Below the pieces are notes generated by a model. The model searched no databases and was not told where the DNA came from. It saw only the letters and a program-made list of their open reading frames with translations. From a virus, in IMG/VR virus record IMGVR_UViG_3300032285_005265, positions 1 through 33,106 of that record: a stretch of DNA of 33,106 nucleotides; one strand, given 5' to 3'. Position 1 is the stretch's first letter; every line of letters begins with the position of its first letter. Below are positions 4,581 to 29,873 of the stretch, piece by piece. The translations under genes were made by a program, and so were the position numbers.

Positions 4581-5498
4581 TCAGCTCCCTATTGCATTCC
4601 TGTAATACTCAACCGTTTTCTCCAGATCCCTCATGAAACACTCCTCCTCATACTGAGGCACCCCCCAACGATCCGTCTCCTCGGTCCTACCCAACGCATA
4701 CCGAGCATCATGTCCAGCGCGGTCCCGAACATGATGAATTAAGCTGGAGGGTTTTCTCAACAAGCCCAAGATCGTCCGCGCCAAAAGCTCATTGTGAATC
4801 TCCTTCGTCCCGGTGATGTGAAGCAGCGTGCCTGGGGGAATGTAATTGCTCGTGGCCACGATATTTAAGAACTCACACACATGATCAACCGATACCCACT
4901 GCCTCGTTTGCATTCCGTTGCCGTAAATCGGAATGGGTTGATCTTGAAGCGCGTTCTTACAAATCATCGGAATGAACTTTTCTTCAGATTGATGGGGACC
5001 AAAAATATTCACGCACCGAGTGGTGATGATCGACAAGTCATGCGTCTTTAAGAAGGCTTGAGCCAAAAGCTCCTGAGCTCCTTTAGTAGCTGAATAAACC
5101 GAGCCCGTGCGAAAGCGGTACTCCTCCTTAAGATCTCCCTCAGGAAGACAAGCACCCACTTCATCGGTTGAAAATAAAACGATTTTAAGATTCTTATGCT
5201 CTTTGGCAGCTTCAAAAAGTTCAAGGGTGCCTAAGACATTATTCTCAACGAAGACACGAGGGCCTTCAATCGAGCGATCCACATGACTCTCTGAGGCCAA
5301 GTGAATGACACAATCCACATCTTCTAAAAGTTTTGAGAGATTGATTTCAAATGAACCCAGTCGATAGGGTGTATGGCTTGCGTCTAAACCTAAGGACAAC
5401 CTCTGATCCAGCGTGCTGACGCGGATTTGATTCTCACGCAAATAAGGAACGAGGTTTTGACCAACAAATCCCGCACTGCCCGTAACCAATAGATGCAA
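4581..5498 (-). CDS. NAD-dependent sugar-nucleotide dehydratase/epimerase, RmlB-like
   Basis: This 305-residue extended short-chain dehydrogenase has the Rossmann motif GSAGFVG (residues 7-13), STDE at 110-113 and YSATK with catalytic Tyr135 and Lys139. The Thr-Asp-Glu triad is what separates dTDP-glucose 4,6-dehydratases (RmlB) from plain epimerases, so a 4,6-dehydratase activity is most likely. TRCVNIFGPHQ and IYGNGMQTRQWVSVDH are also typical of RmlB. It is shorter than usual RmlB (about 350 residues), and the exact substrate is uncertain. The start is TTG with a good AAGGAG. It could supply a modified sugar for the host surface or phage fibres, together with the GT9-type enzyme. Confidence 0.8.
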   Translation of the reverse strand: MHLLVTGSAGFVGQNLVPYLRENQIRVSTLDQRLSLGLDASHTPYRLGSFEINLSKLLEDVDCVIHLASESHVDRSIEGPRVFVENNVLGTLELFEAAKEHKNLKIVLFSTDEVGACLPEGDLKEEYRFRTGSVYSATKGAQELLAQAFLKTHDLSIITTRCVNIFGPHQSEEKFIPMICKNALQDQPIPIYGNGMQTRQWVSVDHVCEFLNIVATSNYIPPGTLLHITGTKEIHNELLARTILGLLRKPSSLIHHVRDRAGHDARYALGRTEETDRWGVPQYEEECFMRDLEKTVEYYRNAIGS

Positions 5499-6215: not shown

Positions 6216-7034
6216 CTAAAACAATTTAAACGCATTGAGCACAGATTGAGGACTTATTTGAACCGTCTGTCCTTGCGTATCGGTGGTGATCGTATCACCG
6301 GCTCCTAAGTTATAACCAGATGAATCTCCTGGCTTTGCGTCCTTATGTTTCCAGGAGACCTCCACGTTCGATTGCGAAACAAATCCCCAAGACTGGCCGA
6401 CTTGAATCGTCTCAGCAAACTCAAGCGAGACGACTGCAATTCTCGGTGCTCCATTGTTAAAAAAAGCCTCATACTCGACATTACAACTACGAATGAGGCA
6501 GGGAATACTATCCGTGTGATACGGACCTACATAGGAAGAAATTCCAGAGCCCGGCAAATAAAGAATCAAACGAGGCGGAGCACTCATGACCTGTCCTTTA
6601 GGATAGTCTGGATAGGTTTTTGATCTTAACCACGAAATGGCTGCTGATACATTCACTAGCTCAGGATCCACCTTGGCTCCCAAGAGAGCCGAGCCAATCG
6701 CATTGACCGAGTTTTTTAGGATATCGAGAGCTGAATTCACAGTAGATAAACCATTACCTACTGTCGTGACATGGGTATAGTCCGTCGCAAAAATAGCAGA
6801 AAAAGAAATGATCCGCTCACTGCCGTGAGTCCACTGATAAATCGGGTGAGATCCTCCGATCACATCCTTGGTTGAATAACTCACGCCACGAGAATCAGAG
6901 ATCGTCTCAGGATAGTATTGAAACGCACGCACGGAGGAGGTATCGACCGTCCCGTCATCAAAAAGTTCTGCTAAATAAGCTTTAGCCCTCGTTTTTGAGT
7001 CCGTGACTTGAGCGATGCTATTGAGTAGGCCCAC
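6216..7034 (-). CDS. Tail-tube/baseplate-like protein (CIS tube-like)
   Basis: This 272-residue protein has an N-terminal region reading FQYYPETISDSRGVSYS, then GGSHPIYQWTHGSERIISFS. It is similar in layout to contractile-injection tube or tail-tube-initiator proteins, where a short F/Y-x-P segment precedes a Gly-Gly-Ser/Pro and a strand such as ISFSAIF. A central helix-rich insert and a C-terminal beta part with SWKHKDAKPGD follow. It starts with GTG and overlaps the preceding transmembrane gene by 17 nt. Placing a baseplate protein this far from the main tail operon is unusual. Confidence in the fold is moderate. Confidence 0.5.
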   Translation of the reverse strand: MGLLNSIAQVTDSKTRAKAYLAELFDDGTVDTSSVRAFQYYPETISDSRGVSYSTKDVIGGSHPIYQWTHGSERIISFSAIFATDYTHVTTVGNGLSTVNSALDILKNSVNAIGSALLGAKVDPELVNVSAAISWLRSKTYPDYPKGQVMSAPPRLILYLPGSGISSYVGPYHTDSIPCLIRSCNVEYEAFFNNGAPRIAVVSLEFAETIQVGQSWGFVSQSNVEVSWKHKDAKPGDSSGYNLGAGDTITTDTQGQTVQISPQSVLNAFKLF

Positions 7035-7341: not shown

Positions 7342-8267
7342 TGCCAACTCCCCCCGGCAGCAAATTCACACAACACCGAGCGTCCCTTCACCGTGAAAGC
7401 ATTTAATCGGTGGGGCTGAGTGGGGTCAAATTTTTTAATCTGAAGGGTATCAGTAAATTGATAATGACCATCAAACCCTAGAACTGAAACTGAGGTGGGT
7501 GCGTTGATTTTTAATTTCCTACCCTCAAGTGAGATCGCTGGATACGAAAGAGGCGTGAAGGCCGGATCATAGGAGGCTACTAACTCGTTAATCAGAAGAT
7601 TTTTATAAACCGGGGAAATCACAACCCCCTCTAATACGCAAGTGGTTTTATCAGGAATATGGACGAGTGATGCAAGCTCTAAATGAAGTATTCCCTTCTC
7701 ATCTAACTCCACACTCTCATCAAACGACACCCCGCAGCCGGTGAGCACGGCTCTGACCTTCCCACTTCCTCCCACATGATAAGAGAGAGTATGGGAGAAG
7801 TTTCCGCTCACCTTATGGGTGGATCCCACCCAAGACTCCCCGGGTTGAATCACGCGAATGGCAAAAGTCCCTCGAAATCCAAAGACCTCAATTGGGGTTT
7901 TCGCTTGCTGAGGAAAATGAGGAGAGACAGTGACGGTGATCAGGCAGTTACGAGATGCAGGCCCAGAAAGAGGAACCCTGACTTGAGCAAACTCCGTGTA
8001 CGCTTGAGATACCCCAAGCTCACAATCCTCGGAATCCATCCTCATCTCCCCTGAGCCCACTCCCTGCGCGAGCAAATGAAGCGAGGAGAGATCGGTTCCC
8101 GCTGGCACTGCAATTAGACCCAGACCGTGGTAGTTCTTACTCTCTAAAGTAAACTCAACCGAGGGGTATCCGGAGCCTAGGGATGGCATCGACTGATCAG
8201 GCCGCAAGGCACCCAAACAGCCTGCCAAAAAAATAAGAGCTAAAATGACGAATTTTTTCATGTTCAT
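7329..8267 (-). CDS. Lipoprotein, 312 aa, unknown function
   Basis: From the ATG at 8267 the product starts MNMKKFVILALIFLAGC, a lipoprotein signal with lipobox LAGC, so it should be anchored in the host outer or inner membrane. The mature part is beta-rich with several Cys (for example DCELG, NCLITV, TGCGV, TTCVLEG and a final Cys-Gln-Gln), suggesting disulphides in the periplasm. It looks like repeated Ig/beta-sandwich domains. It sits in a cluster with membrane proteins and could be an outer spanin-like or exclusion lipoprotein. It is long for an outer spanin, so the role is open. Confidence 0.55.
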   Translation of the reverse strand: MNMKKFVILALIFLAGCLGALRPDQSMPSLGSGYPSVEFTLESKNYHGLGLIAVPAGTDLSSLHLLAQGVGSGEMRMDSEDCELGVSQAYTEFAQVRVPLSGPASRNCLITVTVSPHFPQQAKTPIEVFGFRGTFAIRVIQPGESWVGSTHKVSGNFSHTLSYHVGGSGKVRAVLTGCGVSFDESVELDEKGILHLELASLVHIPDKTTCVLEGVVISPVYKNLLINELVASYDPAFTPLSYPAISLEGRKLKINAPTSVSVLGFDGHYQFTDTLQIKKFDPTQPHRLNAFTVKGRSVLCEFAAGGSWQCQQ

Positions 8268-10061: not shown

Positions 10062-10097
10062 GGAATAAAAGGGCCAGGCATTTTTAGTCCCTGGCCC
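10062..10097 (-). terminator. Rho-independent terminator of the oxidase fusion gene
   Basis: On the minus strand GGGCCAGG (10097-10090) pairs with CCTGGCCC (10078-10071) around an 11-nt loop and is followed by TTTTATT. It lies 38 nt beyond the stop of the 1019-aa gene. This is a strong intrinsic terminator for that transcript. Confidence 0.8.
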
Positions 10098-10135
10098 TTT
10101 CTGTTTACTGCTCAACTAAAGCATACTCATTACAA

Positions 10136-13100
10136 TCAAACTGTATGAGTATGTGTGCTGTAAGGAGCTTGCACATAGCCAGGTGCCACAACCTCAACTT
10201 GCTGCATCATTCCCATATCTTGATCGTCAAGTAAATGACAGTGCATGAGGAATAAACCAGTATAGTCTTCAAACTTGGTTCTCATTCTCACCTGTCCTCG
10301 TTGACCTTCAACTGCTTCAGTTGCATCACCTACTAAAACCCCGGCTGGAATTGTGGTGGTGTCTTCATACCCTTGGAATGCAATTTGCATTTCACGTTCA
10401 AAGGTATAAGCACCTTCACCGCTCATGGGAGGATTAGGCATTGCGTTTGCGCCGAACAACCCGTCACGGTAACCCATGATTTGGTATGGATTCACGTGAA
10501 TATGAAACTGATGAATGACATCTGATTTATTTTCCATCAACAACTCTTCACAGGTGCCTAAATAAGCAACCGTGCGGTTAAAATCATTGTAAGGAGATTC
10601 ATTCATCCAGGTCGATCCGCTTCCCATCCCAGCCACACCGCGACCATGAATAGCGAAACTCATGACTCGGCGTCTCACAATCTTATCTGCCAAAGCTTCT
10701 ACAGGAAGCGCAATATTTCTGTAGTAGTAGTGGTCAGTTAGGATCTCAACGATTTGCTGATCCTGGTTGTTCGTGGAGGAGTTGTTCAGCGTGGTCAATT
10801 TGAATAGGTCATATTCAAACGACACGGTTCCTTCGGCAGGAAGTGTAGCCGATGAGCCTTCAGGGACTGCGATTTTAAAAGTCGCAGCGTCTGTGTTCAG
10901 CTCACTGATGACGAAATCCGTTCCACTGATGGCAACTCTTGCACCGACTGCAAGATGATGAGGCTCATCATTTGGCATGACCAGCGTTCCATCTGCGGCA
11001 AGAGATGCACCTTCCACTGTGGCCACAATCGGAGTTGAGCCAAGCAACGTCTGTAACTCTGCGACTGAAGAGATATAGCTCTTCGTTGCAAAATCAACTT
11101 GTGGCAAGGCTGCGCCGTCTGTAGCAGGAGCGGGGAGCAGGCTCTCTAGTTTTGAAACGTGATTCGATGCGCTGTTTGCGAGAGTCTCGCCGTAAGCAAT
11201 CGATGCGATCTTAACTGGTGCATCGATGTTATCGAAGGTTTCAGTTTCAGTGATCGGCAACGTGTAAATCGGATACTCGCCCGAGACTTCAACGCCCACT
11301 TTTGGAACGACGAAGAATTCAAAACGCTGACCTGGGTTACAGATGATGTAACTCAAGCGAACGCCCGCTGGGTAGTAAACGAAGTCAGGGTCAATCACGG
11401 TGTCAGAGAAGCCTTGCGGAATGACTGGCACTCCGTCGCGGCCCACGATCACCAGGTCATGATCTTTGACTGCGATTCTGTGGAAAGTAATGCCCGATGC
11501 GTTGAGCATGGAAAATACTTTCAATTCCCCTGCTTTCACCGAGTAAACGGGTTGTTTCTGACCGTTCACTGAGTGAATAAACTTCACATCCACTGGGGTA
11601 CAGCTTGGGGTTGCCATGCTGAAATTTCCGTGGACGTGAGGAGCATTTCCTTCAAGAGCAGCGCAAGAGCAAATACACTTAGGATCTAAGTTGTCCTTGT
11701 AATATGGGCTCAAGTCAAGCGCGTCTACTGGAGTGACTTTCTGTCCGTCTTCCGCTGGCGTTGCATTTGGATCATAGACATCCAAAGGCAGGTTAGACAC
11801 ATAGTCTACCCAATTGAGCTCGTCGTGACCATTGAGGTTATCGCCCCATTGCATGCGTTGCAAGATCATGAACTCACGATCCACACCCGCTGCGTTGAGT
11901 CTTTGCTGATAGGGGCCTTCAATTAAAATCGGGCCCGCTGCGCCTCGGGAGATCATGTTCATCGAACCGCCGTGGCCATGTGGATGGTACCAGTAGAGCC
12001 CGCCGAAGTGATTCGCTGGCACTTCATAGTAGTAACGAAGCTTCGAGCCTGGTTTAACCGTTCTCATGACGTTATCGCCAAAGCCGTCTGGACGTGCGTG
12101 AACACCGTGCCAATGCAGGTTAGTCTGTCCGCGTTGCATGATATGCTGCATCCAAATGGTCGCGGTATCCAGCGCCATTGGATTTGAGTTCAGTGGGTAA
12201 GCGCGATCATCGAGATGCATGTGCACCATCTCATGCCGTTGCATCACGCCATCGGACCAAGGTTCGATTTCACCGAGATCGTCCATGTTATTTTGGAATT
12301 CAACGGCAAGAGCATCGCCTGGGCGAACTTTCAAAACAGGGCCGCAGATCGTGCCGTTAAAATTAGCCGAGCGCTTCATGATGCGACCGAGCGCGAAAGC
12401 GTCATCCGTGTTCAGATCAAGCTTCACATTCAAAAGGCCGTCTTCAGACTCATAAAGAGCCCAAGCCTGTTTACCCAAATTCACACTTGGGTCAACGAGA
12501 GCTGGTTTTTTAACAGGCTCACCCTTACGCTCAATGTAAGGATTCGCTGCTTCTGCAAGTCCTTCGCCCTTGTCGGTTGAAGTAAGAGCAAACTTTCCTT
12601 TTTCAATCCATTGCCCATCGAGACGGCGATACTCAACTACGAGCTCCCCATTTGCGTTTGTTCCCAGTCTCCAAGAATCGTGCTCGCCTGAGCCTAGATA
12701 GAGCTTACCGGATTTAACACGGTTTCCGACTCGTACCTTTTGTTCAGAAAGAGCGGTCTTGTTATCAATCTTAATTTCTGTCTCACAAGAAAGATTAATA
12801 TTATCAGAAGTATTCCATGCGTTGTTCGCATAGTCATAGAGCCAAAAATGGTCTCTAAAGCCTTTGAGCACAATACCGCCGAAAGACGCATCCAAATCAC
12901 CTACGGTTGCTGGGTCGGCAGAGCCATTCAACACCAAACGCTTAGAATCCAAGATCTGAGCGCGGTGGGTTTCGGGACCGACGAATGGTGCGGCTGGGTC
13001 CCCAATGAGAAGAGGTCGGCACTCGGTAAAGTTACCAGCAGCTAGACCATCGTGATCTAAGTCGTTCCAGGCGGTGACACCGTCACCGATCTTAAATTGA

Positions 13101-13195
13101 TGAGTATCGGTTTCAACACCGATTTCTCCAGTTGCAAGTACTGGGTTCTGAGCAACCCAATCAGCAGCAGGACCGCGTTTCATTTGAATTTGCAT
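10136..13195 (-). CDS. Phage-fibre N-terminus fused to a multicopper oxidase
   Basis: This 1019-residue protein begins with a fibre-type domain (MQIQMKRGPAADWVAQNPVL, then IGVETDTHQFKIGDG, residues 1-48), the layout of phage major tropism determinant/hyaluronidase-type N-termini. A beta-rich linker follows. From about residue 265 it is a three-domain multicopper oxidase of CotA type: HWHG at 361-364, WYHPHGHGG with His404, 406 and 408, HQFHIH at 895-900, and HCH at 985-987. The expected second type-1 copper His is Asp991; Met997 or its neighbour is kept. No signal peptide is seen. A further beta domain is inserted at about 700-796. The start has a GAGGG site. It is bracketed by terminators at both sides. 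Confidence 0.85.
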   Translation of the reverse strand: MQIQMKRGPAADWVAQNPVLATGEIGVETDTHQFKIGDGVTAWNDLDHDGLAAGNFTECRPLLIGDPAAPFVGPETHRAQILDSKRLVLNGSADPATVGDLDASFGGIVLKGFRDHFWLYDYANNAWNTSDNINLSCETEIKIDNKTALSEQKVRVGNRVKSGKLYLGSGEHDSWRLGTNANGELVVEYRRLDGQWIEKGKFALTSTDKGEGLAEAANPYIERKGEPVKKPALVDPSVNLGKQAWALYESEDGLLNVKLDLNTDDAFALGRIMKRSANFNGTICGPVLKVRPGDALAVEFQNNMDDLGEIEPWSDGVMQRHEMVHMHLDDRAYPLNSNPMALDTATIWMQHIMQRGQTNLHWHGVHARPDGFGDNVMRTVKPGSKLRYYYEVPANHFGGLYWYHPHGHGGSMNMISRGAAGPILIEGPYQQRLNAAGVDREFMILQRMQWGDNLNGHDELNWVDYVSNLPLDVYDPNATPAEDGQKVTPVDALDLSPYYKDNLDPKCICSCAALEGNAPHVHGNFSMATPSCTPVDVKFIHSVNGQKQPVYSVKAGELKVFSMLNASGITFHRIAVKDHDLVIVGRDGVPVIPQGFSDTVIDPDFVYYPAGVRLSYIICNPGQRFEFFVVPKVGVEVSGEYPIYTLPITETETFDNIDAPVKIASIAYGETLANSASNHVSKLESLLPAPATDGAALPQVDFATKSYISSVAELQTLLGSTPIVATVEGASLAADGTLVMPNDEPHHLAVGARVAISGTDFVISELNTDAATFKIAVPEGSSATLPAEGTVSFEYDLFKLTTLNNSSTNNQDQQIVEILTDHYYYRNIALPVEALADKIVRRRVMSFAIHGRGVAGMGSGSTWMNESPYNDFNRTVAYLGTCEELLMENKSDVIHQFHIHVNPYQIMGYRDGLFGANAMPNPPMSGEGAYTFEREMQIAFQGYEDTTTIPAGVLVGDATEAVEGQRGQVRMRTKFEDYTGLFLMHCHLLDDQDMGMMQQVEVVAPGYVQAPYSTHTHTV

Positions 13196-13221: not shown

Positions 13222-13270
13222 AAAAAGTTAATCCTCAGGGGGGGCGTCAATCTAATCGCCCCCCCTGAGG
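13222..13270 (-). terminator. Strong terminator of the long-fibre gene
   Basis: On the minus strand a 14-bp perfect stem (CCTCAGGGGGGGCG with its complement, 13270-13257 and 13246-13233) closes a 10-nt loop and is followed by ATTAACTTTTTT. It lies just past the stop of the 1032-aa fibre gene and 27 nt before the oxidase start. It should uncouple the two genes unless read through. Confidence 0.85.
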
Positions 13271-13283
13271 CTTTAAGTTGGAA

Positions 13284-16200
13284 CTAAACAGTGCCGCCGT
13301 CTAAAGTCACCTGAGAGATGTAAGCACCGCGAACGTGAATCACATCACCGGCTACGAGTTGTTCTTGACCCGAAACCACTAATGATCCAATGAACGTCAC
13401 GCGAGTGACACCACCGATGACTGCCAGCGTGTAATCATCACCTTCATAAAGAGCAAGGCGATCGACATGGAGCTGAAGGGAATCAGATCCATAAGCGTGA
13501 GCGAGATCAATATAACCATTGGAAATATCGGTCGCACTCAACTCAACACGCTGTTGAGCGAAGTTGTAATAAGCAGCTTCCAGTGCCGTGACGCGGGCAT
13601 CCAATGCTGCTTCCACACCCTGAGCTCGTGAGGTCTCCGTGGTGATATCTCCGAGGAGGACCCCTTCTGCTGCCATGGCTCGTGAAGTTTCAACCACCAG
13701 CGCACTGGAGATAGAAGCTTCTTGAGCTTGAGCGCGGCTCACTTCTGCTGCAAGAGCGGAAGCAATGCTGCCTTCAGCGGCCAGAGCTCGTGAGGTCTCT
13801 GCATCCGTGTAAGCCTGATCAGCAGCCTGTACGGAGGCTTCAGCAGCAAGAGCTCGTGAGGTCTCAACTGCGAGAGCGGAAGCAATACTGCCTTCAGCGG
13901 CCAGAGCTCGTGAGGTCTCTGCATCGGTGTAAGCTTGTGCTGCACCGGCAACCGAGAGCTCAGCGGCTTGTGCGCGGCTGACTTCTGAGAGCAAGTCCGA
14001 TTGAAGCTGAGATTCAACTCCCATCGCTCGTGAGGTCTCTGCATCCGTGTAAGCTTGCGCTGCACCGGAAAGCGAGAGCTCAGCGGCTTGTGCGCGACTG
14101 ACTTCTGAGAGCAAGTCCGATTGAAGCTGAGATTCAACTCCCATCGCTCGTGAAGCCTCTGCACTGATTGCAGCTTGAGCAGCGTTGCCAACCGAGAGTT
14201 CTGCGGCTTGAGCGCGACTGACTTCTGAGAGCAAGTCTGATTGAAGCTGAGATTCAACTCCCATCGCTCGTGAGGTCTCTGCATCCGTGTAAGCTTGCGC
14301 TGCACCGGAAATCGAGAGCTCAGCGGCTTGTGCGCGACTGACTTCTACTGCGAGAGATGAACCCAGGCTCGCTTCAGCGGCAAGAGCTCGTGAAGTCTCT
14401 GCATCGGTATAAGCCTGATCAGCAGCCTGTACGGAGGCTTCAGCAGCTTGTGCGCGACTGACTTCTGCTGCTAATGAAGCCGAGAGGCTTCCTTCAGAAG
14501 CCATCGCACGACTGATCTCGCTGGCTAAGCCTGATTCAGCGGAAGACATCCGGCCCAAGAACGCAGGGTCCAAATCAATCACGAAGCCTGTATCAACAGA
14601 GCCTGTGACTAAGATGTCGTTTGCGGTTCCTGAAACGGATGAATCCACATGAGCGATCACATCCCACTGACCCAAGGTGTTAAATACCAAGCCGTCACTG
14701 GTGTTAGCCTGGAAAGGAGTTCCAGATGGACCTGCAATGAACCAACCACTGGTGATGACCTTGTAGTAATCCCCAATGTTTGGAGAAAATACGGACAAAT
14801 CAAAAGGAGCGACTTCAGTGCCGCCTGCGACCGTAGCCTTATAGTTAAAGACATGTCCCAAGGCTGCAATCTGGGTGGTCAAAGAAGCAGCGAGGCTTGC
14901 TTCGGCTGCAGATGCGCGACTCACTTCTGCAAGCAAATCCCCTGCAATCAACCCCTCAGCGGCAAGAGCTCTTGAAGTCTCTGCATCGGTGTAAGCCTGA
15001 GCTGCACCGGCAATTGAGAGTTCTTGAGCTTGTGCGCGACTGACTTCTGCTGCAAGAGCGGAAGCAATGCTACCTTCAGCAGCAAGAGCTCGTGAAGTCT
15101 CAGCATCGGTGTACGCTTGTGCTGCACCAGCTAAGGACAATTCAGCGGCCTGAGCTCTTGAAGCCTCAAGCGAAATGGAGTTGCTGAGTGAAAGCTCGGA
15201 TGCTTGAGCTCGGGATGCCTCAGCATTCACTGCAGCTTGAGCAGCGTTAGCAACAGAAAGTTCTGCTGCTTGAGCGCGGCTGGCTTCGCTTGCAATGGAG
15301 TTGCTGAGTGAAAGCTCAGAAGCCTGAGCTCGGGATGCCTCAGCATTCACTGCAGCTTGAGCAGCGTTAGCAACAGAAAGTTCTGCTGACTGAGCGCGTG
15401 AAGTCTCAACAGCGAGAGCATCGCTTAAAGAGACTTCAGCAGCAAGAGCTCGTGAGGTCTCAACTGCGAGAGCACCAGCAAGGGATTGTTCAGCTCCTTG
15501 AGCGCGGTTTGATTCTGAGAGGAGATCTGCAGCAATGGAGCTCTCTGAAGCCATGGCACGCGATTGCTCAGCGGCGATTGCATCAGAAAGGGATTGCTCA
15601 GAAGCCAGAGCTCGTGAAGTCTCACTTGCTAAAGATGAAGCAAGGCTTGCTTCAGCAGCTTCAGCTCTTGAGATCTCGCTGTCCAAACCGGATTCAACGG
15701 TAGACATCCGGCCTAAGAATGCAGGATCCAAATCAATCACAAATCCCGTATCAACAGAGCCTGTGACTAAAATGTCGTTTGCAGTTCCTGCAACGACTGT
15801 ATCCACATGCGCGATGACATCCCATCCGCCTACGGTGTTCTTAACGATCCCATCAGCCAGTTGAACGAAGAAAGGCTGACCTGAACCGACTTTAAAATAA
15901 CCAGCGTTCGTGCCTACTTTGTAATAATTCCCAGCAGTGGCAGTTGGAGCGAATACGCTCAAATCAACGGCAGAAGCAGCATCGACACCAGGAACTGCTT
16001 CACCGATGTAGGAGAACACAGAGCCTAAGTTAGAGATCTGGCTTCCAATCGCAGCAGCCAAGCTTGCTTCTGAGGCCATGGCGCGTGATTGCTCAGCGGC
16101 AATCGCATCGCTTAAACTGCCTTCAGCCGCAACAGCTCGTGATGCCTCTGAGGAGAGCTGACCCAAATTCACAGCGTCAGTTGCAGCAACACCGTTGCCT

Positions 16201-16382
16201 ACATGGGTGACAACGTTTCCTAAGAAATCAACCTGATTACTGCCGTTGACTTCTAAGATATCAACTTGAGTGATCCCATCGGATTGAAGAGCACGCAAAG
16301 CCTCTGCATTTTGAAGCAGGACTTTACTGCCATCGACCTGATCGGGTCCTATAAATTTTTTCTTGATCCTAAAATCCGACAT
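13284..16382 (-). CDS. Long tail fibre with coiled-coil repeats and YadA-like neck
   Basis: This 1032-residue protein starts MSDFRIKKKFIGPDQVDGSK. A segment THVGNGVAATDAVNLGQL near residue 60-77 resembles the neck (DAVNxxQL) of trimeric adhesins. Two long arrays of helical repeats follow, each unit of 18 or 22 residues built around SRAxAAE and AYTDAETSRA. About 31 SRA motifs occur in all. Each array is preceded by a similar globular domain (FSYIGEAVPGVD, then GWDVIAHVDTVVAGTANDIL; and FNYKATVAGGTEV, then QWDVIAHVDSSVSGTANDIL). The C-terminus (VELSATDISNGYIDLA onward) is a beta domain shared with two other fibre proteins here. It is probably a trimeric host-binding fibre. Confidence 0.8.
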   Translation of the reverse strand: MSDFRIKKKFIGPDQVDGSKVLLQNAEALRALQSDGITQVDILEVNGSNQVDFLGNVVTHVGNGVAATDAVNLGQLSSEASRAVAAEGSLSDAIAAEQSRAMASEASLAAAIGSQISNLGSVFSYIGEAVPGVDAASAVDLSVFAPTATAGNYYKVGTNAGYFKVGSGQPFFVQLADGIVKNTVGGWDVIAHVDTVVAGTANDILVTGSVDTGFVIDLDPAFLGRMSTVESGLDSEISRAEAAEASLASSLASETSRALASEQSLSDAIAAEQSRAMASESSIAADLLSESNRAQGAEQSLAGALAVETSRALAAEVSLSDALAVETSRAQSAELSVANAAQAAVNAEASRAQASELSLSNSIASEASRAQAAELSVANAAQAAVNAEASRAQASELSLSNSISLEASRAQAAELSLAGAAQAYTDAETSRALAAEGSIASALAAEVSRAQAQELSIAGAAQAYTDAETSRALAAEGLIAGDLLAEVSRASAAEASLAASLTTQIAALGHVFNYKATVAGGTEVAPFDLSVFSPNIGDYYKVITSGWFIAGPSGTPFQANTSDGLVFNTLGQWDVIAHVDSSVSGTANDILVTGSVDTGFVIDLDPAFLGRMSSAESGLASEISRAMASEGSLSASLAAEVSRAQAAEASVQAADQAYTDAETSRALAAEASLGSSLAVEVSRAQAAELSISGAAQAYTDAETSRAMGVESQLQSDLLSEVSRAQAAELSVGNAAQAAISAEASRAMGVESQLQSDLLSEVSRAQAAELSLSGAAQAYTDAETSRAMGVESQLQSDLLSEVSRAQAAELSVAGAAQAYTDAETSRALAAEGSIASALAVETSRALAAEASVQAADQAYTDAETSRALAAEGSIASALAAEVSRAQAQEASISSALVVETSRAMAAEGVLLGDITTETSRAQGVEAALDARVTALEAAYYNFAQQRVELSATDISNGYIDLAHAYGSDSLQLHVDRLALYEGDDYTLAVIGGVTRVTFIGSLVVSGQEQLVAGDVIHVRGAYISQVTLDGGTV
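13730..14490 (-). repeat. Tandem 120-bp repeats, fibre stalk array 2
   Basis: Near-identical 120-bp units (40 codons: one 18-residue plus one 22-residue helical step) repeat across this stretch. For example, 13981-14040, 14101-14160 and 14221-14280 are almost the same. The units encode the helical stalk. Such DNA repeats are open to unequal recombination that would change stalk length. Confidence 0.85.
14900..15660 (-). repeat. Tandem helical-stalk repeats, fibre array 1
   Basis: A second run of SRAxAAE-type units has similar 60- and 120-bp periods but is more diverged than 13730-14490. It separates the first globular domain (about 15690-16020) from the second (about 14530-14860). Some adjacent units, such as 15181-15240 and 15301-15360, are almost identical. 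Confidence 0.7.
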
Positions 16383-17030: not shown

Positions 17031-17834
17031 TCATTTACGCATTTGATTAAACAAATTGTCAAGAGATTCGTCTATCTTCGTTTGTTGATCTTCTCTCTCA
17101 CTCCAATCAATCTGCAAATCTTTCAAGCTTCTTTTTTGCCTCAAATCATCCCCGGAAGGAAAGATCGGAGTGATCGAAACTAGATGGTTTCCCTCTTTTA
17201 AAACCCCAGCATTTTTAATGACCAACCTATCGCCGGGCTGAGAACCCGGTGGGATTCTCACGGTCTTTAACCCCCACATCGTGAGCACTTCGATTTTCCC
17301 ACCCCTGAGCATCATCTCAAGCGGCACTCCCTCCTCCGAGAAAACATCCTTAGCCTCCACTCGGTACTTCGGGTGACGAGCCGGTAAAACTTGCACATGA
17401 CATTGCCCAAGCTGGTTCCCACACTTTAGCCCTAAGCCTGGAAAAATCCGCTCAAACCCCCCCGTTGAACCCGCAGGAATATCCACACGAATGCACACAC
17501 TTTCCACTTCCTTCACGGGAAGAATCTCAAGCGTCTTTTCATGCAATTCCACTCGGTTGTAATTCAAAAAAACCGAATGACCAAAAAATGCTTTCTCAAA
17601 ACCGACTGCAATTCTCAGTTTAAAGAGAAGGATTTCAGAGAGGTCCTGTTTTTTAAATTCATTCTGATACCCAAGATCCGTGAGCATCTTATAAGCGTGC
17701 ATGATTTGCTTAAAAACTTCAGGATCTCCCCCCTGATCGGGGTGATGCTCTAAGCATTTCTTTCTCCACGCAAGCTTCAACTCCTCAGGCGTCGTCCTCT
17801 CGTTCACCCCTAAGATGGTGAAAAAAGGATTCAC
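17031..17834 (-). CDS. J-domain co-chaperone without zinc finger (CbpA/DnaJ-B type)
   Basis: This 267-residue protein begins with a J-domain: FTILGV at residues 5-10, LAWRKKCLEH at 21-30, the HPD motif at 31-33, and GGD after it. No Cys-rich zinc-finger repeats follow. The C-terminal part (VRVDIPAGSTGGFERIFPG, AKDVFSEEGVPLEMMLRGGK and RIPPGSQPGDRLVIKNAGV) matches the two substrate-binding CTDs of DnaJ and CbpA. The HPD should stimulate a host DnaK, and the CTDs bind a client. The GTG start overlaps the preceding glycosyltransferase stop by 4 nt. Next to a 1032-aa repetitive fibre, it may be a dedicated fibre-folding factor. Confidence 0.85.
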   Translation of the reverse strand: MNPFFTILGVNERTTPEELKLAWRKKCLEHHPDQGGDPEVFKQIMHAYKMLTDLGYQNEFKKQDLSEILLFKLRIAVGFEKAFFGHSVFLNYNRVELHEKTLEILPVKEVESVCIRVDIPAGSTGGFERIFPGLGLKCGNQLGQCHVQVLPARHPKYRVEAKDVFSEEGVPLEMMLRGGKIEVLTMWGLKTVRIPPGSQPGDRLVIKNAGVLKEGNHLVSITPIFPSGDDLRQKRSLKDLQIDWSEREDQQTKIDESLDNLFNQMRK

Positions 17835-18799
17835 ACCCGTCCTACAATTCGTTTGAAAGCGTTGATGAATTTCTCAGCCCTCATCTCCTTCGTACAGGGA
17901 GGAGATTGCTCAGAACGCGGACAGTTTTGAAAATTCCAAAAATCTAAATTCCAATCACTCTGGCAGAATCGGCAGCCCACCTCAGGCTCCACAGCCAAGG
18001 TAATGCAATTGGGCCTGGAGGGAAACCTAAGATCAGGCGATACGTTCGTAAACCCACAAATCACCGGAGCCTTCGTCGTTAGAGCCAAGTGAAGAGGCCC
18101 TGAATCTAGTCCCATCACACATCGCGATTGACCCATGATGGTTGCTAACTCCGAGAAGCTCGTTTGATTGATTAAATCAACCCCAAACCCAGGGTAGCTA
18201 AACTCAGTCTTAGCTAAGGCAGTCTTCCAGTTCGCCATCGCTCCTGTTCGCCCAACATAAACCGGGGTGAAGCCTAAATCGTGAATGCCCTGTGCGGTTT
18301 TTAAAATCTCCTCACCCGGCCACATCCTCGTGTGATCCCGGTAAGTCACGACCATCACCACGGCGCGATTAAAATCAATTCCAAAATGATCGACCGGCAC
18401 CCGAGGTAACTCCACATACGGCACCTTCTCAATCGGCACCGTTCGAGCTAGTAAACCCACTGAGGCGTAATGAATCAGGTGAAAGCGTGAAGGAGTTAAG
18501 ATCGAGACGTTTTTAGCCTGGGGTCTTTCCATGTTGAATTTTCGAACGGCATACCCCGCGAGATTTAATCCCTCCTCAAGCGTCACGAAATGAGAGCTGG
18601 GCACCTGGGGGAATAACTCCCGAAACTCTCCCATGAGCGCCACTCGGTAATCCTGATTCCTGGGCTCATGAAAGGTTCGAATCGCATAGTGAATGACCGA
18701 TGAGGCAGCGATCAAATCGCCCACCGCACCGGAGTTAAGGTAGTAGCAAATCTTGTCAGAAAACGGTCTCAGTTGGTCCACGCTGAAACAAGTGACCAT
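17831..18799 (-). CDS. GT9 heptosyltransferase-like glycosyltransferase
   Basis: This 322-residue GT9-type enzyme has GAVGD at residues 24-28 and the conserved MGLDSGPLHLA (Asp232, Gly234, Pro235, His237). These are the acceptor-side and nucleotide-sugar-binding motifs of ADP-heptose:LPS heptosyltransferases. Length and domain order match the family. Four Cys near the C-terminus (CRFCQ, CPRSEQ, PPCTKE) are less usual. Candidate roles are modification of host LPS to block other phages or glycosylation of fibres. The overlap with the J-domain gene means they are made together. A TnpB/TnpA element sits just upstream and separates it from the baseplate operon. Confidence 0.8.
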   Translation of the reverse strand: MVTCFSVDQLRPFSDKICYYLNSGAVGDLIAASSVIHYAIRTFHEPRNQDYRVALMGEFRELFPQVPSSHFVTLEEGLNLAGYAVRKFNMERPQAKNVSILTPSRFHLIHYASVGLLARTVPIEKVPYVELPRVPVDHFGIDFNRAVVMVVTYRDHTRMWPGEEILKTAQGIHDLGFTPVYVGRTGAMANWKTALAKTEFSYPGFGVDLINQTSFSELATIMGQSRCVMGLDSGPLHLALTTKAPVICGFTNVSPDLRFPSRPNCITLAVEPEVGCRFCQSDWNLDFWNFQNCPRSEQSPPCTKEMRAEKFINAFKRIVGRV

Positions 18800-19003: not shown

Positions 19004-19477
19004 TCAGTGCGGCGTTTGCTGCTGTTCGATGTATTGTTTAATGATCTCTAGGGGAGCGCCCCCACAAGAGCCTGCGAAATAGCTCCCACTCCAGAGAGAA
19101 TTCATCCAGATGTATTTGTGCAAGGTCTGGAATTGCTGCTTTCGGATGTGTCGGGAAGATACTCCTTTGAGACTATTAACCAGGCTTGAGACGGATACCT
19201 TTGGAGGGTAGTTGATGAGGAGGTGGACATGATCTCCTTCTCCGTTGAACCCTTTCAATTCTGACTCAAAGTCGGTGCAAACATCTCGAAATATTGTTTT
19301 CATAAAGCTCAGAATCTCTTTAGTGAAGAGTTTCTTTCGGTATTTCGCGACAAATACCAAATGCACGTGTATCATAAAAACACAGTGCCTGCCGTGCCTA
19401 ATTCCAGGTGTAGTGCGCTTTTTAACGGCCTCTGGGCTATTTCTTGGGCTTTTGATTTTTTTCATTGACTCATGCAT
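19004..19477 (-). CDS. tnpA: IS200-type HUH transposase
   Basis: This 157-residue Y1 HUH transposase has GDHVHLL with His83 and His85 for the metal, an upstream HVHLVF strand, and catalytic Tyr149 in IIKQYIEQQ. It works as a dimer that cuts and joins single-stranded ends at the left and right hairpins. All key residues are present, so it looks intact. The ATG at 19477 shares a palindromic ATGCAT with the tnpB start. An internal start at codon 5 (MKKIKS) is possible. Its stop lies in the second left-end hairpin. Confidence 0.9.
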   Translation of the reverse strand: MHESMKKIKSPRNSPEAVKKRTTPGIRHGRHCVFMIHVHLVFVAKYRKKLFTKEILSFMKTIFRDVCTDFESELKGFNGEGDHVHLLINYPPKVSVSSLVNSLKGVSSRHIRKQQFQTLHKYIWMNSLWSGSYFAGSCGGAPLEIIKQYIEQQQTPH

Positions 19478-20608
19478 AAACCAATGAAAGCATTCATTGC
19501 AATGGTTGCTGAGAAACCCAAACGAAAAATGGCTAAGAAAAGGCCAAAAGACCCGAACGTAGCGGTCACTACGCTAAGATACCGGCTCAAAGACAGTTCG
19601 AAGATGGGCCGATTAGATCGGCTTGCACGGTCCGTGAATTTTGTTTGGAACTATTGCAATGAAACCTCTTTCAATGCGATCCGAAATCACAGTAAATGGC
19701 TATCAGCAATTGATCTGAAAAATCTCACCTCTGGTTCAGCCAAAGAACTCGGGATCAGTAGTGTCACGGTTCAGGCAATCTGTGAAGAATACGCAATCAG
19801 GCGAATTCAGTTCAAAAAAAGAAAACTCCGCTGGAGAGGCTCCTCTGGCTCTAAGAAATCCTTAGGCTGGATACCCTTCAAGGCAAACTCAATCCAAGTG
19901 AAAGGTGACCGAGTCACCTACCTGGGCCATGAGTTCAGAATCTGGCTTTCAAGGCCGATTGAAGGGCGGATTCTCACGGGCTCATTCTCTCAAGACGCAC
20001 AGGGACATTGGTATATTAATCTTGCCTGCGAGGTCACAAAGTTAGAGCACAGGCACCAGGTCGAGGAAGTCGGAATCGATGTAGGGCTCAAAACTTCGGC
20101 AGTCCTCAGTGACGGGACGGTCATTGAGAATCAATCCCAATATAAGAAGCTTGAAGAGCGGCTGGGGAAGGCTCAAAGAGCCAAGAAAAAGAAACAAGTG
20201 AAGAAAATCCACGCCAAGATCAAGAACAAGCGCAGAGATTTTCTTCATAAAGAAACCACTAAGATTGCCAGGAAATACCATACGGTATTCGTGGGTGATG
20301 TCAGTGGGAAGTTTGTACAATCCGGGAACGGAAAAAGTTCAACAGACGCTTCAATCGGAGTCATCCGAGATCTTCTGAAATATAAAGCCATGAGGCACTC
20401 AGGAAATTGCTTTGAAGTGAATGAGAATTCCTCCACCGTCACTTGCTCTGCCTGTCACAAAAAGACAGGTCCGAGTGGACTCAGTGGCCTTGGAGTAAGA
20501 GAATGGGTTTGCAGCGAGTGTCACGCTCAGCACGACCGCGACATCAACGCAGCAAAGAATATTCTCCGATTCGGACGTGAATCGCTAAGAGCGACGAAAG
20601 TCGCTTAA
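19472..20608 (+). CDS. tnpB: TnpB RNA-guided endonuclease-like protein
   Basis: This 378-residue IS605-type TnpB has a basic N-terminus, RuvC-I Asp203 in GIDVGLKTSAV, a zinc finger with CSAC (325-328) and CSEC (347-350), and RuvC-III Asp357 in HDRDINAAKNILR. The usual RuvC-II glutamate before the ED/DL pair is Gly275 in VFVGDVSG. Another Glu close by, such as Glu315 or Glu318 in the segment leading to the zinc finger, may serve instead, as in TnpB/IS1341 groups that carry this GDV pattern. It is guided by an omega RNA from the right end. No Shine-Dalgarno is evident. Confidence 0.85.
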   Translation: MHKPMKAFIAMVAEKPKRKMAKKRPKDPNVAVTTLRYRLKDSSKMGRLDRLARSVNFVWNYCNETSFNAIRNHSKWLSAIDLKNLTSGSAKELGISSVTVQAICEEYAIRRIQFKKRKLRWRGSSGSKKSLGWIPFKANSIQVKGDRVTYLGHEFRIWLSRPIEGRILTGSFSQDAQGHWYINLACEVTKLEHRHQVEEVGIDVGLKTSAVLSDGTVIENQSQYKKLEERLGKAQRAKKKKQVKKIHAKIKNKRRDFLHKETTKIARKYHTVFVGDVSGKFVQSGNGKSSTDASIGVIRDLLKYKAMRHSGNCFEVNENSSTVTCSACHKKTGPSGLSGLGVREWVCSECHAQHDRDINAAKNILRFGRESLRATKVA

Positions 20609-25809: not shown

Positions 25810-28080
25810 TCACCTCGAAGCAACATTAACGATATCTCCGCTCGTCAAAAATCTCTTGGTCACATTCACACTCACCGTTCCATTTTGAATGATCTGCTGC
25901 CTTGAGATGATTAAATTCCCTGCACTATCTAAATACTCAATCGGACCATTGATCGTCACGTTAATAAATCGAATATCTCCCGTTGAGCTTGCTGCACGAA
26001 TGGCGTCCTCAATGTCTGAAACATAAAGACTCACCCCAGCATTTCTTCTCACTAAAAGTCCAAACGGACTGATCGAACTCGTCAACGCATTTAAGCTCTG
26101 AGTTTTAATATCACTGGCCACTGCCGTCTGACTAATCCCAATCTCAACCGTCACATCCGCATTCACCACGCGGTAATACCCATCGAGCACATTCACCGTC
26201 ACGACCGCATCGGAGATCGACTTAATCGCAGATTGCACGTTATCTAAAACCGTCGAACTCGGAGAAATGTAGCGATTATTGGAGTCCGCAGAAAGTAAAA
26301 TGACTTGAATGTGATTGGAGGAGCTGGTGTCAGAAAGCGTTTGAGAGAGATAATCACTCAAACCTGAGACAGCCGATGAGATCAATTGCGTCCCTGAAAC
26401 GGCAGATCTCAATAATAAACTCTGACCCGATACGCCCAAAGAATCTAGTCCCATCACTCCTAAAGAGCCCGTTCCACTAACTTGAAGATTCGGTACCCCT
26501 GAAACCCCGACCTGAGAGAGTCCTGAAACCCCTGTGACCGACGGTGCAAGCCCACCACTTAAGCGATTGCCTGAGACAAAAATACTTCCCTGAGCGGAGC
26601 TTAAAGTCACCGTGTTACCAAACACATCAAAAGCTTTTGAAGTTAAACTCACCTGAGAACCCGAGGCAGCAGCAGTGACTTGTTGACTCACCAAAGTATT
26701 CGTCGATTTATTAATGGCAGAGGCGGCATTCTGAGCCGTAATCGCTGAGGACGCTCCGATATTAAATTGTTGAGCACCAGCCCCAGAGCTGACCGCCGTG
26801 AAGGCGACCCCGTTGATCGAAAAATTATCATTCCCTGAGACCGATGAACCAAAAGTGATGGTTCCCGTGGCTGGAGTGCCCTGATAAACTCCGACATTTG
26901 ACAATCCACTAACTCCAAGCGAGCTCACGCCTGCAACCGATAATGCCGATTGTCCAGACACTTCGAGAGAAGCTTGTCCTGAGACTCCCGTTGCAGCCAT
27001 TGCATTTACCGTCTGAAGCACCACTCCCTGGCCCACGGCAATCAGTGCGAGTTGGTTTTGGATCGTCAGGTCGTTTGAAATTCCACGCACAATCTGAGCG
27101 TCTGCGAGAGCCACACCCGGTTGAAGAGTAGCTATCGTGTCGTAATCACTCTTCACGACTGCAGCGTTTTGAGTTCTAAAGAAAGTGGAGGCATACGACC
27201 TCACATGCCTAATATCCTCAGGGTCTGATCCCACCGTGGACACAGCATTTGAGAAGGTCATGGGGATGGAAATCCCATGAATTACGAGTTGATTGACGAC
27301 TGAGCTAATTTGGTTTTGCCCAATGGACCCTGATGAGCCTTTGCCGTACCGAAACACGAGCGCGATTTGAGAGGAGAGAGGCGGAATATTGCCAGCAATC
27401 CCATCCCCGAATCTAAGTTTTGCTGGGGATTCTGTGAAAAGAACCTCATACACGTTGGAAGGGGAGTATTTAATCAGATCTTGCCTACTCCACGCATTCC
27501 CATCCACTGAGAGGATCATGCCGTCTGAGTAGATGAATTGCCCGGAGGGAATTCCCAGCACATTAAATTGCTGATTAGGTGTGCCGTCTGAGACGAAGCT
27601 CAATCGTCTCGTCTGACCTTCTTTAATCGGGATACTCACGCTCGTTTGCCCTGGAGCGATCACAAAATCAAACGCACCACTGTATTGATAAACCGTGTCG
27701 CCTGGACCTTGAAAGGCAAATCCCACCGGAATGGTCACGGGAAAAGCATAAGGACCCTTGGATAAAGTAATCGTCAGATCAGTCGTTGCAGGAGCGCCCG
27801 GGGAAATGGAATACCCCAGCATTCGAGCAAGCTTGGTGATGGAGGAGTTCAAACGAGCGGTTGAGAGAAAAAGCTCACTCGCACGACGATTGACCATGAA
27901 CGAGAGCGACATCATCGCAAAGGCAATCTGATCCATCAGAGCATTGCCTAAATCAGTGGCAATCAGATTATTGAATTGCTCGGGGTACTGGGTTTTAAAG
28001 AATTGAGTGGCTTCATCCCGGTAAGTCTGAAAATCTTCGGCAATATACTGGACTCGGTTGATTTCGTTTGCAATTGCCAT
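25810..28080 (-). CDS. gpJ-like baseplate wedge protein with octad-repeat insert
   Basis: This 756-residue protein has the gpJ/baseplate-J pattern. The N-terminal helical part (DFQTYRDEATQFFKTQYPEQ, MVNRRASELFLSTARLNSSI, LARMLGYSISPGAPATTD) is followed by beta domains (FGDGIAGNIPPLSSQI) and a C-terminal strand-rich region. Between about residues 364 and 556 there is an insert. Two arrays of octads built on S-x-L-x-V-S-G-x flank a globular domain (ITFGSSVSGNDNFSINGVAF, then GAQQFNIGASSAITAQNAAS) of a type found in other phage tail proteins. gpJ is usually shorter. The protein starts right after gp25. Confidence 0.75.
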   Translation of the reverse strand: MAIANEINRVQYIAEDFQTYRDEATQFFKTQYPEQFNNLIATDLGNALMDQIAFAMMSLSFMVNRRASELFLSTARLNSSITKLARMLGYSISPGAPATTDLTITLSKGPYAFPVTIPVGFAFQGPGDTVYQYSGAFDFVIAPGQTSVSIPIKEGQTRRLSFVSDGTPNQQFNVLGIPSGQFIYSDGMILSVDGNAWSRQDLIKYSPSNVYEVLFTESPAKLRFGDGIAGNIPPLSSQIALVFRYGKGSSGSIGQNQISSVVNQLVIHGISIPMTFSNAVSTVGSDPEDIRHVRSYASTFFRTQNAAVVKSDYDTIATLQPGVALADAQIVRGISNDLTIQNQLALIAVGQGVVLQTVNAMAATGVSGQASLEVSGQSALSVAGVSSLGVSGLSNVGVYQGTPATGTITFGSSVSGNDNFSINGVAFTAVSSGAGAQQFNIGASSAITAQNAASAINKSTNTLVSQQVTAAASGSQVSLTSKAFDVFGNTVTLSSAQGSIFVSGNRLSGGLAPSVTGVSGLSQVGVSGVPNLQVSGTGSLGVMGLDSLGVSGQSLLLRSAVSGTQLISSAVSGLSDYLSQTLSDTSSSNHIQVILLSADSNNRYISPSSTVLDNVQSAIKSISDAVVTVNVLDGYYRVVNADVTVEIGISQTAVASDIKTQSLNALTSSISPFGLLVRRNAGVSLYVSDIEDAIRAASSTGDIRFINVTINGPIEYLDSAGNLIISRQQIIQNGTVSVNVTKRFLTSGDIVNVASR

Positions 28081-28083
28081 GAA

Positions 28084-28458
28084 TTAAAACCCTTTTTTCC
28101 CTATCGTCACATAACCCGTCTGATCCGTAACACCCTGCACAGTGTATGTTACGTTCACCTGAATTTCGCTATTGTTTTCAAGAAAATTTAAAGAACGAAC
28201 CACCACTTGGGGTAAAAAATTCGCAATCCCAGCCAAAATCTCGCGGCGAATCATGGATTGAAGCGGTGGACCTTGGGTCTCAAAAATTAACTTCTGAAGT
28301 GACATCCCCAGCGTCGGACGCATCACGCGAGAGCCCTTGGCCGTTCGAAGAAGCACAGTCAATGCAGAACGAATGACATCCGTCCCCTTTGCTGAAGCAG
28401 GAAGACCATTGCCTTCAATTCTAAACGGAAAGCTGATACCAGCCAGAATAGATGCCAC
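28084..28458 (-). CDS. gp25-like baseplate wedge protein
   Basis: This 124-residue protein matches the gp25/gpW-type wedge layout. FPFRIEGNGLPASAKG is followed by DVIRSALTVLLRTAKGSRVM, then RPTLGMSLQKLIFE (the conserved R..G..L..L.FE segment), and IRREILAGIANFLPQV. A GTG start has an AGGAG site 8 nt before it. It lies between the 199-aa and gpJ-like genes, the usual place. Confidence 0.8.
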   Translation of the reverse strand: MASILAGISFPFRIEGNGLPASAKGTDVIRSALTVLLRTAKGSRVMRPTLGMSLQKLIFETQGPPLQSMIRREILAGIANFLPQVVVRSLNFLENNSEIQVNVTYTVQGVTDQTGYVTIGKKGF

Positions 28459-28526
28459 GCCACTTACTCCTCTTAAGGTGAAGATTAACCCACACTGGGC
28501 ATCGCTTCAAGCCGCTTGACATTCTG

Positions 28527-29126
28527 TTAGGCAATAATGCCCGAAATGCCCGACCCACTCCCCATTCCAGGAATGGGAGGTTGAGAGCCTGAGCCAGAGA
28601 TCACGAGTGAGCCCGTGGCTTGAGAAAACCCTGACGCGCATCCCGTCCCAATGGCTTGGGCAAAAGCAGGCCAAAGTTTACCGTTAAAACCAGGCGCTGC
28701 CGATTGAATGGCCGATCCCCAAGCTGAACCTGAGACGGCAATCGAGCCGGGAGTGATCTGAGCAGTTCCCAAATAAACTAAGGAATGAGTCGATTGAAGG
28801 CTGGCCTGAGCAAGCTGCGAGACCAACACACTGCCAATCACCTCACAGCACGGCATCAACTTCGCGCCTCCTCCACCAAAGGCAGAACTCGCTGCGCTAT
28901 AAATGGCCTGAGCCACCTGATCCGCACTCACGCCCGTTATTCCAGTACCCACTCCAGAGCCGCTTCCAGCCGTTGCTCCCACATCCATCGTCGTGAACGT
29001 AAGGCCGGTTAAATAACTGGCTGAACCCCCAGCAATCGCATCACAGAAATCTTGAAGTTTTTGTCCCTGAAAACCCACTGCTCCAAATGCAGAGAAGAGA
29101 GCCTGAGACCAAGAGGATTTTACCAT
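28527..29126 (-). CDS. Phage protein of unknown function, 199 aa
   Basis: This 199-residue protein is small-residue rich (Gly, Ala, Ser), with two similar helical halves (SSWSQALFSAFGAVGFQGQK; FNGKLWPAFAQAIGTGCASG) and Gly-rich linkers (TAGSGSGVGTGITG and GSGSQPPIPGMGSG). The N- and C-terminal parts resemble each other in LW/AF..A(V/I)G, so it may contain a duplication. Position between the spike and gp25-like genes suggests a structural or assembly role in the tail. I do not recognise a family. Confidence 0.5.
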   Translation of the reverse strand: MVKSSWSQALFSAFGAVGFQGQKLQDFCDAIAGGSASYLTGLTFTTMDVGATAGSGSGVGTGITGVSADQVAQAIYSAASSAFGGGGAKLMPCCEVIGSVLVSQLAQASLQSTHSLVYLGTAQITPGSIAVSGSAWGSAIQSAAPGFNGKLWPAFAQAIGTGCASGFSQATGSLVISGSGSQPPIPGMGSGSGISGIIA

Positions 29127-29191
29127 TTTTTAACAATCTCCGGCAGAATTCTCCCTCTTTTGGATCAAAAAAACAAGGATTTCGCTCCTAC

Positions 29192-29228
29192 TTGACTCAT
29201 ATTAGATATTATGGCATATTAAATATGC
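29192..29228 (+). promoter_or_regulatory. Promoter and operator of the RelE/HigA-type TA pair
   Basis: TTGACT (29192-29197), a 17-nt spacer and CATATT (29215-29220) form the promoter. A perfect inverted repeat, GCATATT-A-AATATGC (29214-29228), overlaps the -10. It is the probable site for the antitoxin. The ATG at 29233 is only a few bases beyond the expected start of transcription. Confidence 0.65.
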
Positions 29229-29232
29229 CCTC

Positions 29233-29562
29233 ATGAGACGTATATTTTTTCAGACACAAGGATTTTCTAGGAAAATAGGCTCTGATGATTTTCTGCTTCG
29301 TAGAATTGAAGCAGCAATATTAAAAAATCCTGAGGCTGGAGATCTTGTACAAGGAACTGGAGGCGTGCGGAAGCTTAGGATAGAGGACCCAACACGCCAA
29401 AAGGGAAAGCGTGGCGGTTTTCGAGTTTTGTATCTGGACCTGCCCACTTATGAAAAGACGTTTCTCATCGTGTTTTACAGCAAAAATGAGGCAGATGATC
29501 TATCGCCACAGGCTAAGAAACAGGTGACTCACCTTGTTGCTGAAATTAAGAAAGGAAGTTAG
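29233..29562 (+). CDS. RelE/HigB-type toxin
   Basis: This 109-residue protein has a RelE/HigB layout. A helical start (TQGFSRKIGSDDFLLRRIEA) is followed by GVRKLRIEDPTRQKGKRGGF with Lys/Arg-rich catalytic-type strands, then RVLYLDLPTYEKTFLIVFY and LSPQAKKQVTHLVAEIKKG. The KGKRGGFRVLY and final helix match RelE-like mRNA interferases. Transcription should be leaderless or nearly so. The antitoxin follows after 2 nt. It is on the opposite strand to the tail operon. Confidence 0.75.
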   Translation: MRRIFFQTQGFSRKIGSDDFLLRRIEAAILKNPEAGDLVQGTGGVRKLRIEDPTRQKGKRGGFRVLYLDLPTYEKTFLIVFYSKNEADDLSPQAKKQVTHLVAEIKKGS

Positions 29563-29564
29563 AT

Positions 29565-29873
29565 ATGCGTATTGAACAAGAATTAATTGAAGGACTTGAG
29601 GAGGTGCTTGAGCACCAACAAGGACGCAGGAAACTTCGCGGTAAAACGAGGGAACTCCCAGATCCTCCTCATCGTTGGAATGCTCGCAAAATTAAGCGCC
29701 TTCGCGAAGCCGTACTTCAATTAAGCCAGACCGAGTTTGCGGTATTGCTCAATGTCAAAACTCCTACCGTTCGAGCTTGGGAACAAGGCCACAATGTCCC
29801 ATCTGGAGCCGCTGCTCGATTGTTGCAGGTCTTTGAAAATGATCAATCATTAGTTCACAAACTCTGCGCCTAG
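29565..29873 (+). CDS. XRE-family antitoxin (HigA-type)
   Basis: This 102-residue antitoxin has a basic N-terminus (EHQQGRRKLRGKTRELP), then an XRE helix-turn-helix (IKRLREAVLQLSQTEFAVLL, NVKTPTVRAWEQGHNVPSG) in its second half. AAGGAAG lies before the ATG. The gene ends exactly against the spike gene on the other strand: the two stop codons share CTAG at 29870-29873. It likely neutralises the RelE-type toxin and represses the shared promoter. Confidence 0.8.
   Translation: MRIEQELIEGLEEVLEHQQGRRKLRGKTRELPDPPHRWNARKIKRLREAVLQLSQTEFAVLLNVKTPTVRAWEQGHNVPSGAAARLLQVFENDQSLVHKLCA

Follow-up and report, generated by a model that had tools for sequence, protein, structure and literature searches.

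How does a multicopper oxidase (MCO) come to stand behind the attachment domain of a phage tail fibre, and could a protein built in this way still carry out oxidation? The question is raised by P0001, a gene of a complete 33,106-base IMG/VR virus record (hereafter the window) whose open reading frame occupies positions 10136–13195 on the minus strand, starts with an ATG at 13195 behind a ribosome-binding-like GAGGGA sequence, and encodes 1019 amino acids plus a stop codon. P0001 joins a phage-fibre N-terminus to a full-length three-domain MCO. Residues 1–52 (13040–13195, minus strand) form the phage adaptor: residues 3–41 match the Mtd_N domain in Pfam (PF18454; E 1.4e-12, 47.7 bits against a cut-off of 26.3) and residues 2–48 match many tail-fibre and structural or virion families in PHROGs, with a best E of 3.3e-15. 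The initial annotation, made from the sequence alone, had read this N-terminus as of a phage-fibre attachment type and had made its idea of a virion enzyme depend on a match to some phage family; phage families do match. Residues 81–215 (12551–12955, minus strand) follow as a hyperconserved linker or fibre-like region with a single weak match, to the virion structural protein family phrog_6002, while the linker as a whole (residues 81–252) found no usable match in solved structures and none in phages. Residues 253–1005 (10181–12439, minus strand) are the three-domain MCO, recognized by Pfam, structure searches and fold matching. Pfam identifies Cu-oxidase_3 (PF07732, E 3.1e-13) and Cu-oxidase_2 (PF07731, E 6.1e-9); the middle Cu-oxidase domain is weak (E 0.004) and under its cut-off. 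The curated NCBIfam cut-offs were missed by a wide interval, with 55.6 bits against 525 for CueO and 39.2 against 950 for PhsA. The N-terminus contains no hydrophobic stretch (the maximum 15-residue Kyte–Doolittle mean is 0.67) and therefore, by that criterion, no signal peptide, in agreement with the initial annotation. An assembly or annotation artefact is ruled out since the same continuous reading frame occurs in two further viral contigs, making three contigs in all.

The predicted structures agree with the domain assignment. An AlphaFold model of the MCO part alone, of medium confidence (pLDDT 58.9), superimposes on the Thermus laccase 2xu9 with a Z score of 21.0 over 382 residues, and the poor full-length model (pLDDT 47.6) likewise has Thermus laccase as its best match (Foldseek E 1.3e-23). 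Searches of the P0001 sequence against solved structures also ranked Thermus laccase first or close to first. Because confidence is only moderate, the models support the fold class and not side-chain geometry, and no type-1 (T1) geometry was taken from the full-length model on account of its pLDDT. Between MCO domains 2 and 3 both the sequence and the models contain an extra beta domain (residues 715–805; 10781–11053, minus strand), which is confidently folded in the models and gave no significant family match. Foldseek also gave alignments to tail fibres that span about 80 columns, and a relationship of the inserted domain to tail-fibre domains is only suggested.

The fusion is not confined to one virus. 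IMG/VR searches by protein, T1 motif, Cys cluster and linker yielded two other whole fusions and no more: L002 (96% identical, 1022 aa) and L001 (65% identical, 1042 aa). The initial annotation had proposed to look for the same fusion in phages, and these viral contigs carry it. No publication on the sampling sites of the IMG/VR contigs was found. These scans and those of cellular genomes used short exact patterns, which miss diverged relatives; four further IMG/VR pattern matches were attributed to chance. The other MCOs found whole on viral contigs (L006–L009, L011, L012 and L014) have the canonical His at the T1 site and carry no fibre domain. A tblastn search of 50,697 deposited phage genomes with the MCO part gave no family-level match; four weak matches of 24–33% identity, for example to a CopA-annotated Acinetobacter record, were rejected as known phage homologues, none of the four spanning both halves of P0001.

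At the DNA level, BLASTN comparison of the window with the L002 locus gives a single match, 10146–13195 at 91%, which corresponds to the MCO gene alone. The flanks differ: contractile baseplate genes are present in the window, whereas the genes that come after the MCO gene in L002 encode the small and large terminase subunits, a head morphogenesis protein and the portal. The baseplate protein of the window was not found in the L001 and L002 contigs, both of which are fragments. Similarity limited to the MCO gene, together with the differing flanks, indicates that unrelated phages acquire and keep this gene. Codon-by-codon comparison of the window with L002 revealed a mosaic, in which synonymous sites are saturated in residues 1–52 and 971–1019 and highly diverged in residues 911–970, while synonymous differences amount to 46% in residues 53–80 and to 8–37% in most of residues 53–910. 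This mosaic indicates that the central part was swapped between unrelated phages later than the ends, and that each phage retained its own adaptor. Where dN/dS could be computed it is mostly about 0.00–0.14, and the fusion gene is under strong purifying selection. With the Mtd_N tail fibres (PF18454 and the PHROG families) P0001 shares its N-terminal sequence, its site in a tail cluster and modular exchange behind the adaptor; it differs from them in its distal part, which has a copper-oxidase fold where those fibres carry domains for receptor binding or with hydrolase or lyase function.

Whether the head could be an active oxidase depends on its copper ligands. All four motifs pointed out by the initial annotation are present on the minus strand: HWHG (361–364; 12104–12115) with the trinuclear ligands H361 and H363, HPHGH (404–408; 11972–11986) with H404 and H406, HQFHIH (895–900; 10496–10513) with the T1 ligand H895 and the trinuclear ligands H898 and H900, and HCH (985–987). 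The last opens the segment HCHLLDDQDMGMM (985–997; 10205–10243), which supplies the trinuclear ligands H985 and H987, the T1 C986 and the axial M996. In canonical MCOs the motif reads HCHxxxH, and its final His, four positions beyond HCH, is the second His ligand of type-1 copper. In P0001, HCH is followed by LLDDQDMGMM, and D991 (codon 10223–10225) occupies this position, a substitution that the initial annotation overlooked. Its description of a near-complete three-domain MCO is upheld as to the fold, but the copper set is not complete: eleven of the twelve canonical ligands are present and the change is confined to position 991. Of the two His and one Cys of a type-1 site, H895 and C986 are kept and the second His is Asp. 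By a strict definition P0001 is not a canonical laccase, since it lacks both the full set of T1 ligands and an export signal; it is an MCO-fold protein.

The substitution is a property of the family. Position 991 is Asp in five of five members and His in five other MCOs aligned with them. The eight trinuclear His, H895, C986 and M996 are invariant in all members that reach these positions, at a family identity of 55–67% outside the close pair; one member, L016, lacks the first four trinuclear His solely as a result of a contig end. Against a background of 42% invariant columns, the probability that none of the seven C-terminal ligands would vary is about 0.002, a figure that, like the other conservation claims, is based on five sequences, among them two partial ones and a nearly identical pair. 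For the three T1 residues the corresponding chance is 0.075, which is not significant and makes the T1 conservation argument by itself suggestive only. A second conserved feature lies at residues 505–532 (11600–11683, minus strand), a CxCxC...HxH...C cluster formed by C507, C509, C511, H520, H522 and C532. It is invariant in five of five members, whereas the other MCOs in the comparison have different residues in place of its four Cys. In relation to the three-domain bacterial MCOs and laccases (Thermus thermophilus 2xu9, Campylobacter McoC 3zx1 and CueO), then, P0001 shares the whole-domain fold, the eight trinuclear His, the T1 Cys, the first T1 His and the axial Met; it departs from them in the replacement of the second T1 His by Asp, the extra Cys/His cluster, an inserted beta domain of about 100 residues, the lack of a signal peptide and the fused phage adaptor.

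An Asp at the second T1 His position would normally impair electron entry, which makes quite plausible a virion fibre with a pseudo-oxidase as its head. Catalysis would have been lost through the His-to-Asp change, and the MCO fold, still binding copper, would serve as a stable metal-dependent scaffold or adhesin, or as a metal-loaded bait that exploits the copper uptake of the host. The invariance of D991 throughout the family fits this proposal, and the Cys/His cluster and a C-terminal HxH could hold metal. SufI, an MCO-fold protein without copper, appears among the fold matches to the MCO-part model and is a precedent. Two further precedents come from virions. The tail fibres T4 gp37 and that of alterophage R22Y bind iron (PMC11705849); they resemble P0001 in their HxH metal sites and in the idea that metal at the tip aids adsorption, and differ in that theirs are trimeric HxH iron sites and not an MCO fold. 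GMC-oxidoreductases of mimivirus build its surface fibrils and genomic fibre (PMC9512402, PMC11042495), so that an oxidoreductase fold acts there as a virion component, surface fibrils included, as proposed for P0001; these proteins belong, however, to a flavin-type family of a eukaryotic giant virus and have no phage adaptor. On the other hand, a plain scaffold could lose its ligands, as SufI did, and a SufI/FtsP-like loss is not what P0001 displays: H895, C986 and M996 have been kept, together with all eight trinuclear His, under strong purifying selection. The retained T1 Cys and Met argue against a dead site. We consider a pseudo-oxidase head the main rival reading, plausible but less likely than a redox-competent one.

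The genomic setting bears on whether the protein is a fibre at all. Baseplate genes lie upstream of the MCO gene on the same strand (25810–30679, minus) and include a J-like wedge (25810–28080; TIGR02243/phrog_219), a gpW-like wedge (28084–28458; phrog_43) and a gpV-like protein (29870–30679; Phage_base_V), all on the minus strand, which identifies the virus as a contractile-tail phage; some of the reading frames between them have no assignment. Directly upstream of the MCO gene is a gene for a 1032-aa coiled-coil fibre (13284–16382, minus strand) with a weak YadA-stalk match. P0001 thus sits among tail and fibre genes, as originally described. In three of three phages (the window, L001 and L002) the MCO gene comes directly after the gene of a coiled-coil fibre, and the C-terminal domains of these fibres are related. 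The idea that this C-terminal domain is an MCO-specific partner was weakened by the presence of three copies of it in the L002 phage. The domain is therefore a reused fibre module, with copies at 5954–7914 of L002 and 28635–28883 of record G002.

Several other genes in the window were noted. Genes for a DnaJ-like chaperone and a family-9 glycosyltransferase overlap one another (17031–18799, minus strand) immediately upstream of the YadA-stalk-like fibre. The glycosyltransferase weakly matches autotransporter O-heptosyltransferases (TIGR04414), and the two products perhaps chaperone and glycosylate the fibre. An IS200/IS605-type transposase gene on the minus strand is inserted, together with a TnpB gene on the plus strand, in the tail-gene cluster at 19004–20608. 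The MCO gene lies between the baseplate genes and a gene with a weak CIS_tube (contractile injection system tube) match (6216–7034, minus strand), and a dTDP-glucose 4,6-dehydratase-like gene is found at 4581–5498 (minus strand). PADLOC returned no match.

The MCO gene is flanked by hairpins, a strong one followed by a T-run between the fibre and MCO genes (13233–13270, minus strand; z −4.6) and a terminator-like one just after the MCO gene (10067–10101, minus strand; z −3.3). Hairpins occur on both sides in L002 as well, an arrangement that resembles cargo ("moron") genes or an autonomous cassette. In L001 there is no hairpin before the MCO gene (7936–8000) and a very strong one after it (11127–11260; z −6.6). 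The cassette-like hairpins, together with the Asp in every family member, weaken a simple laccase reading. They also favour, in these two phages, a moron or auxiliary oxidase that acquired an Mtd_N-like start and is produced inside infected cells, or serves lysogens, without entering the virion. Such cargo has a parallel in viruses of ammonia-oxidising archaea, in which homologues of archaeal MCO1 are reported as auxiliary metabolic genes (PMC9859776, PMC11849493), and copies of the P0001 oxidase exist in bacterial metagenome-assembled genomes (MAGs). The likeness lies in a virus-encoded MCO; P0001, however, is an Mtd_N fusion and not a standalone enzyme, and the passages cited describe no fibre fusion for the archaeal-virus MCO1. 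The N-terminal domain of P0001 comes from a fibre family, a fibre gene adjoins in all three phages, and the adaptor part was not swapped along with the rest of the gene. Cellular MCOs are usually exported, whereas P0001 has no signal peptide. A role as non-virion cargo is therefore improbable.

The MAG copies themselves came from a search of 84,980 genomes for the signature HCHxxDDxDMGMM as a DNA pattern, which matched two contigs only. L017, from a Methylococcaceae MAG, encodes residues 81–1019 including the linker, beside an MFS transporter as the only other clear gene; L016, from a Schlesneria-type planctomycete MAG, encodes residues 498–1017 beside mqnC, mqnA and a homoserine dehydrogenase gene, its Asp-variant MCO (7804–6179) running convergent to the menaquinone (mqn) genes until the contig end cuts it. 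These two copies indicate that the oxidase module may also occur outside viruses. One could suppose that a bacterial surface or secreted MCO, residues 81 onward, was captured whole with its bacterial role, that phages added only residues 1–52, and that display on particles is an accident of capture; the gene content beside both copies agrees with this. Yet both MAG genes run off their contig ends and have lost their N-termini, nothing better for the missing parts was found in the same genomes, and a search of 369 genomes from the same class and 392 from the same phylum gave no further family-level member. Two exact matches in so many genomes look like sporadic import and not an old cellular family, and we regard capture of a bacterial protein as very improbable. 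Because the N-termini are cut off, a cellular version lacking the adaptor is nevertheless conceivable, and the proximity of both copies to ordinary bacterial genes counts against our preferred reading to the extent that a cellular version may exist.

The data presented above have led us to propose that P0001 is a virion fibre with a copper-binding, probably redox-competent MCO head and an unusual T1 site, a reading to which we assign a probability of roughly 0.48. The fusion, its class of fold, the ligand pattern, purifying selection and the spread between unrelated phages have been shown; its virion location, copper loading, catalysis and substrate we infer as follows. Residues 1–52 would dock the protein to the virion, residues 81–252 would provide a conserved stalk or linker, and residues 253–1019 would form the MCO head. 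The head would bind copper both in an intact trinuclear centre and in a type-1 site with Asp991 in place of one His (His-Cys-Asp-Met). It would most likely act as a redox-competent head at the host surface during adsorption, possibly by oxidizing metal ions, phenolic groups or other groups exposed there. The lack of a signal peptide is expected if P0001 is assembled into virions in the cytoplasm. More tentatively, the gene may be a mobile tail-fibre module, exchanged between unrelated phages, that displays on virions an active copper oxidase with a new T1 site of His, Cys, Asp and Met, and would then constitute the first phage-tail redox enzyme.

The MCO superfamily, Mtd_N fibres, viral MCO1 genes, mimivirus oxidoreductase fibrils and iron-binding fibres are all known already. 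The initial annotation knew of no established tail-fibre oxidase of this kind, and our search of the open-access literature likewise found no published account of a phage-fibre oxidase; a redox protein on the virus particle, from a gene present in three unrelated environmental bacterial viruses, would be new as far as we could find. To our knowledge, virion-borne phage enzymes are mostly hydrolases, lyases, lysins and deacetylases. If the proposal is true, host recognition would gain oxidation chemistry, or copper binding, from a copper redox protein on the tail, and a natural MCO with a conserved type-1 Asp would provide a testable case for the tuning of type-1 sites. The phages that share the module differ in their surrounding genes, which indicates that it is under selection beyond one lineage.
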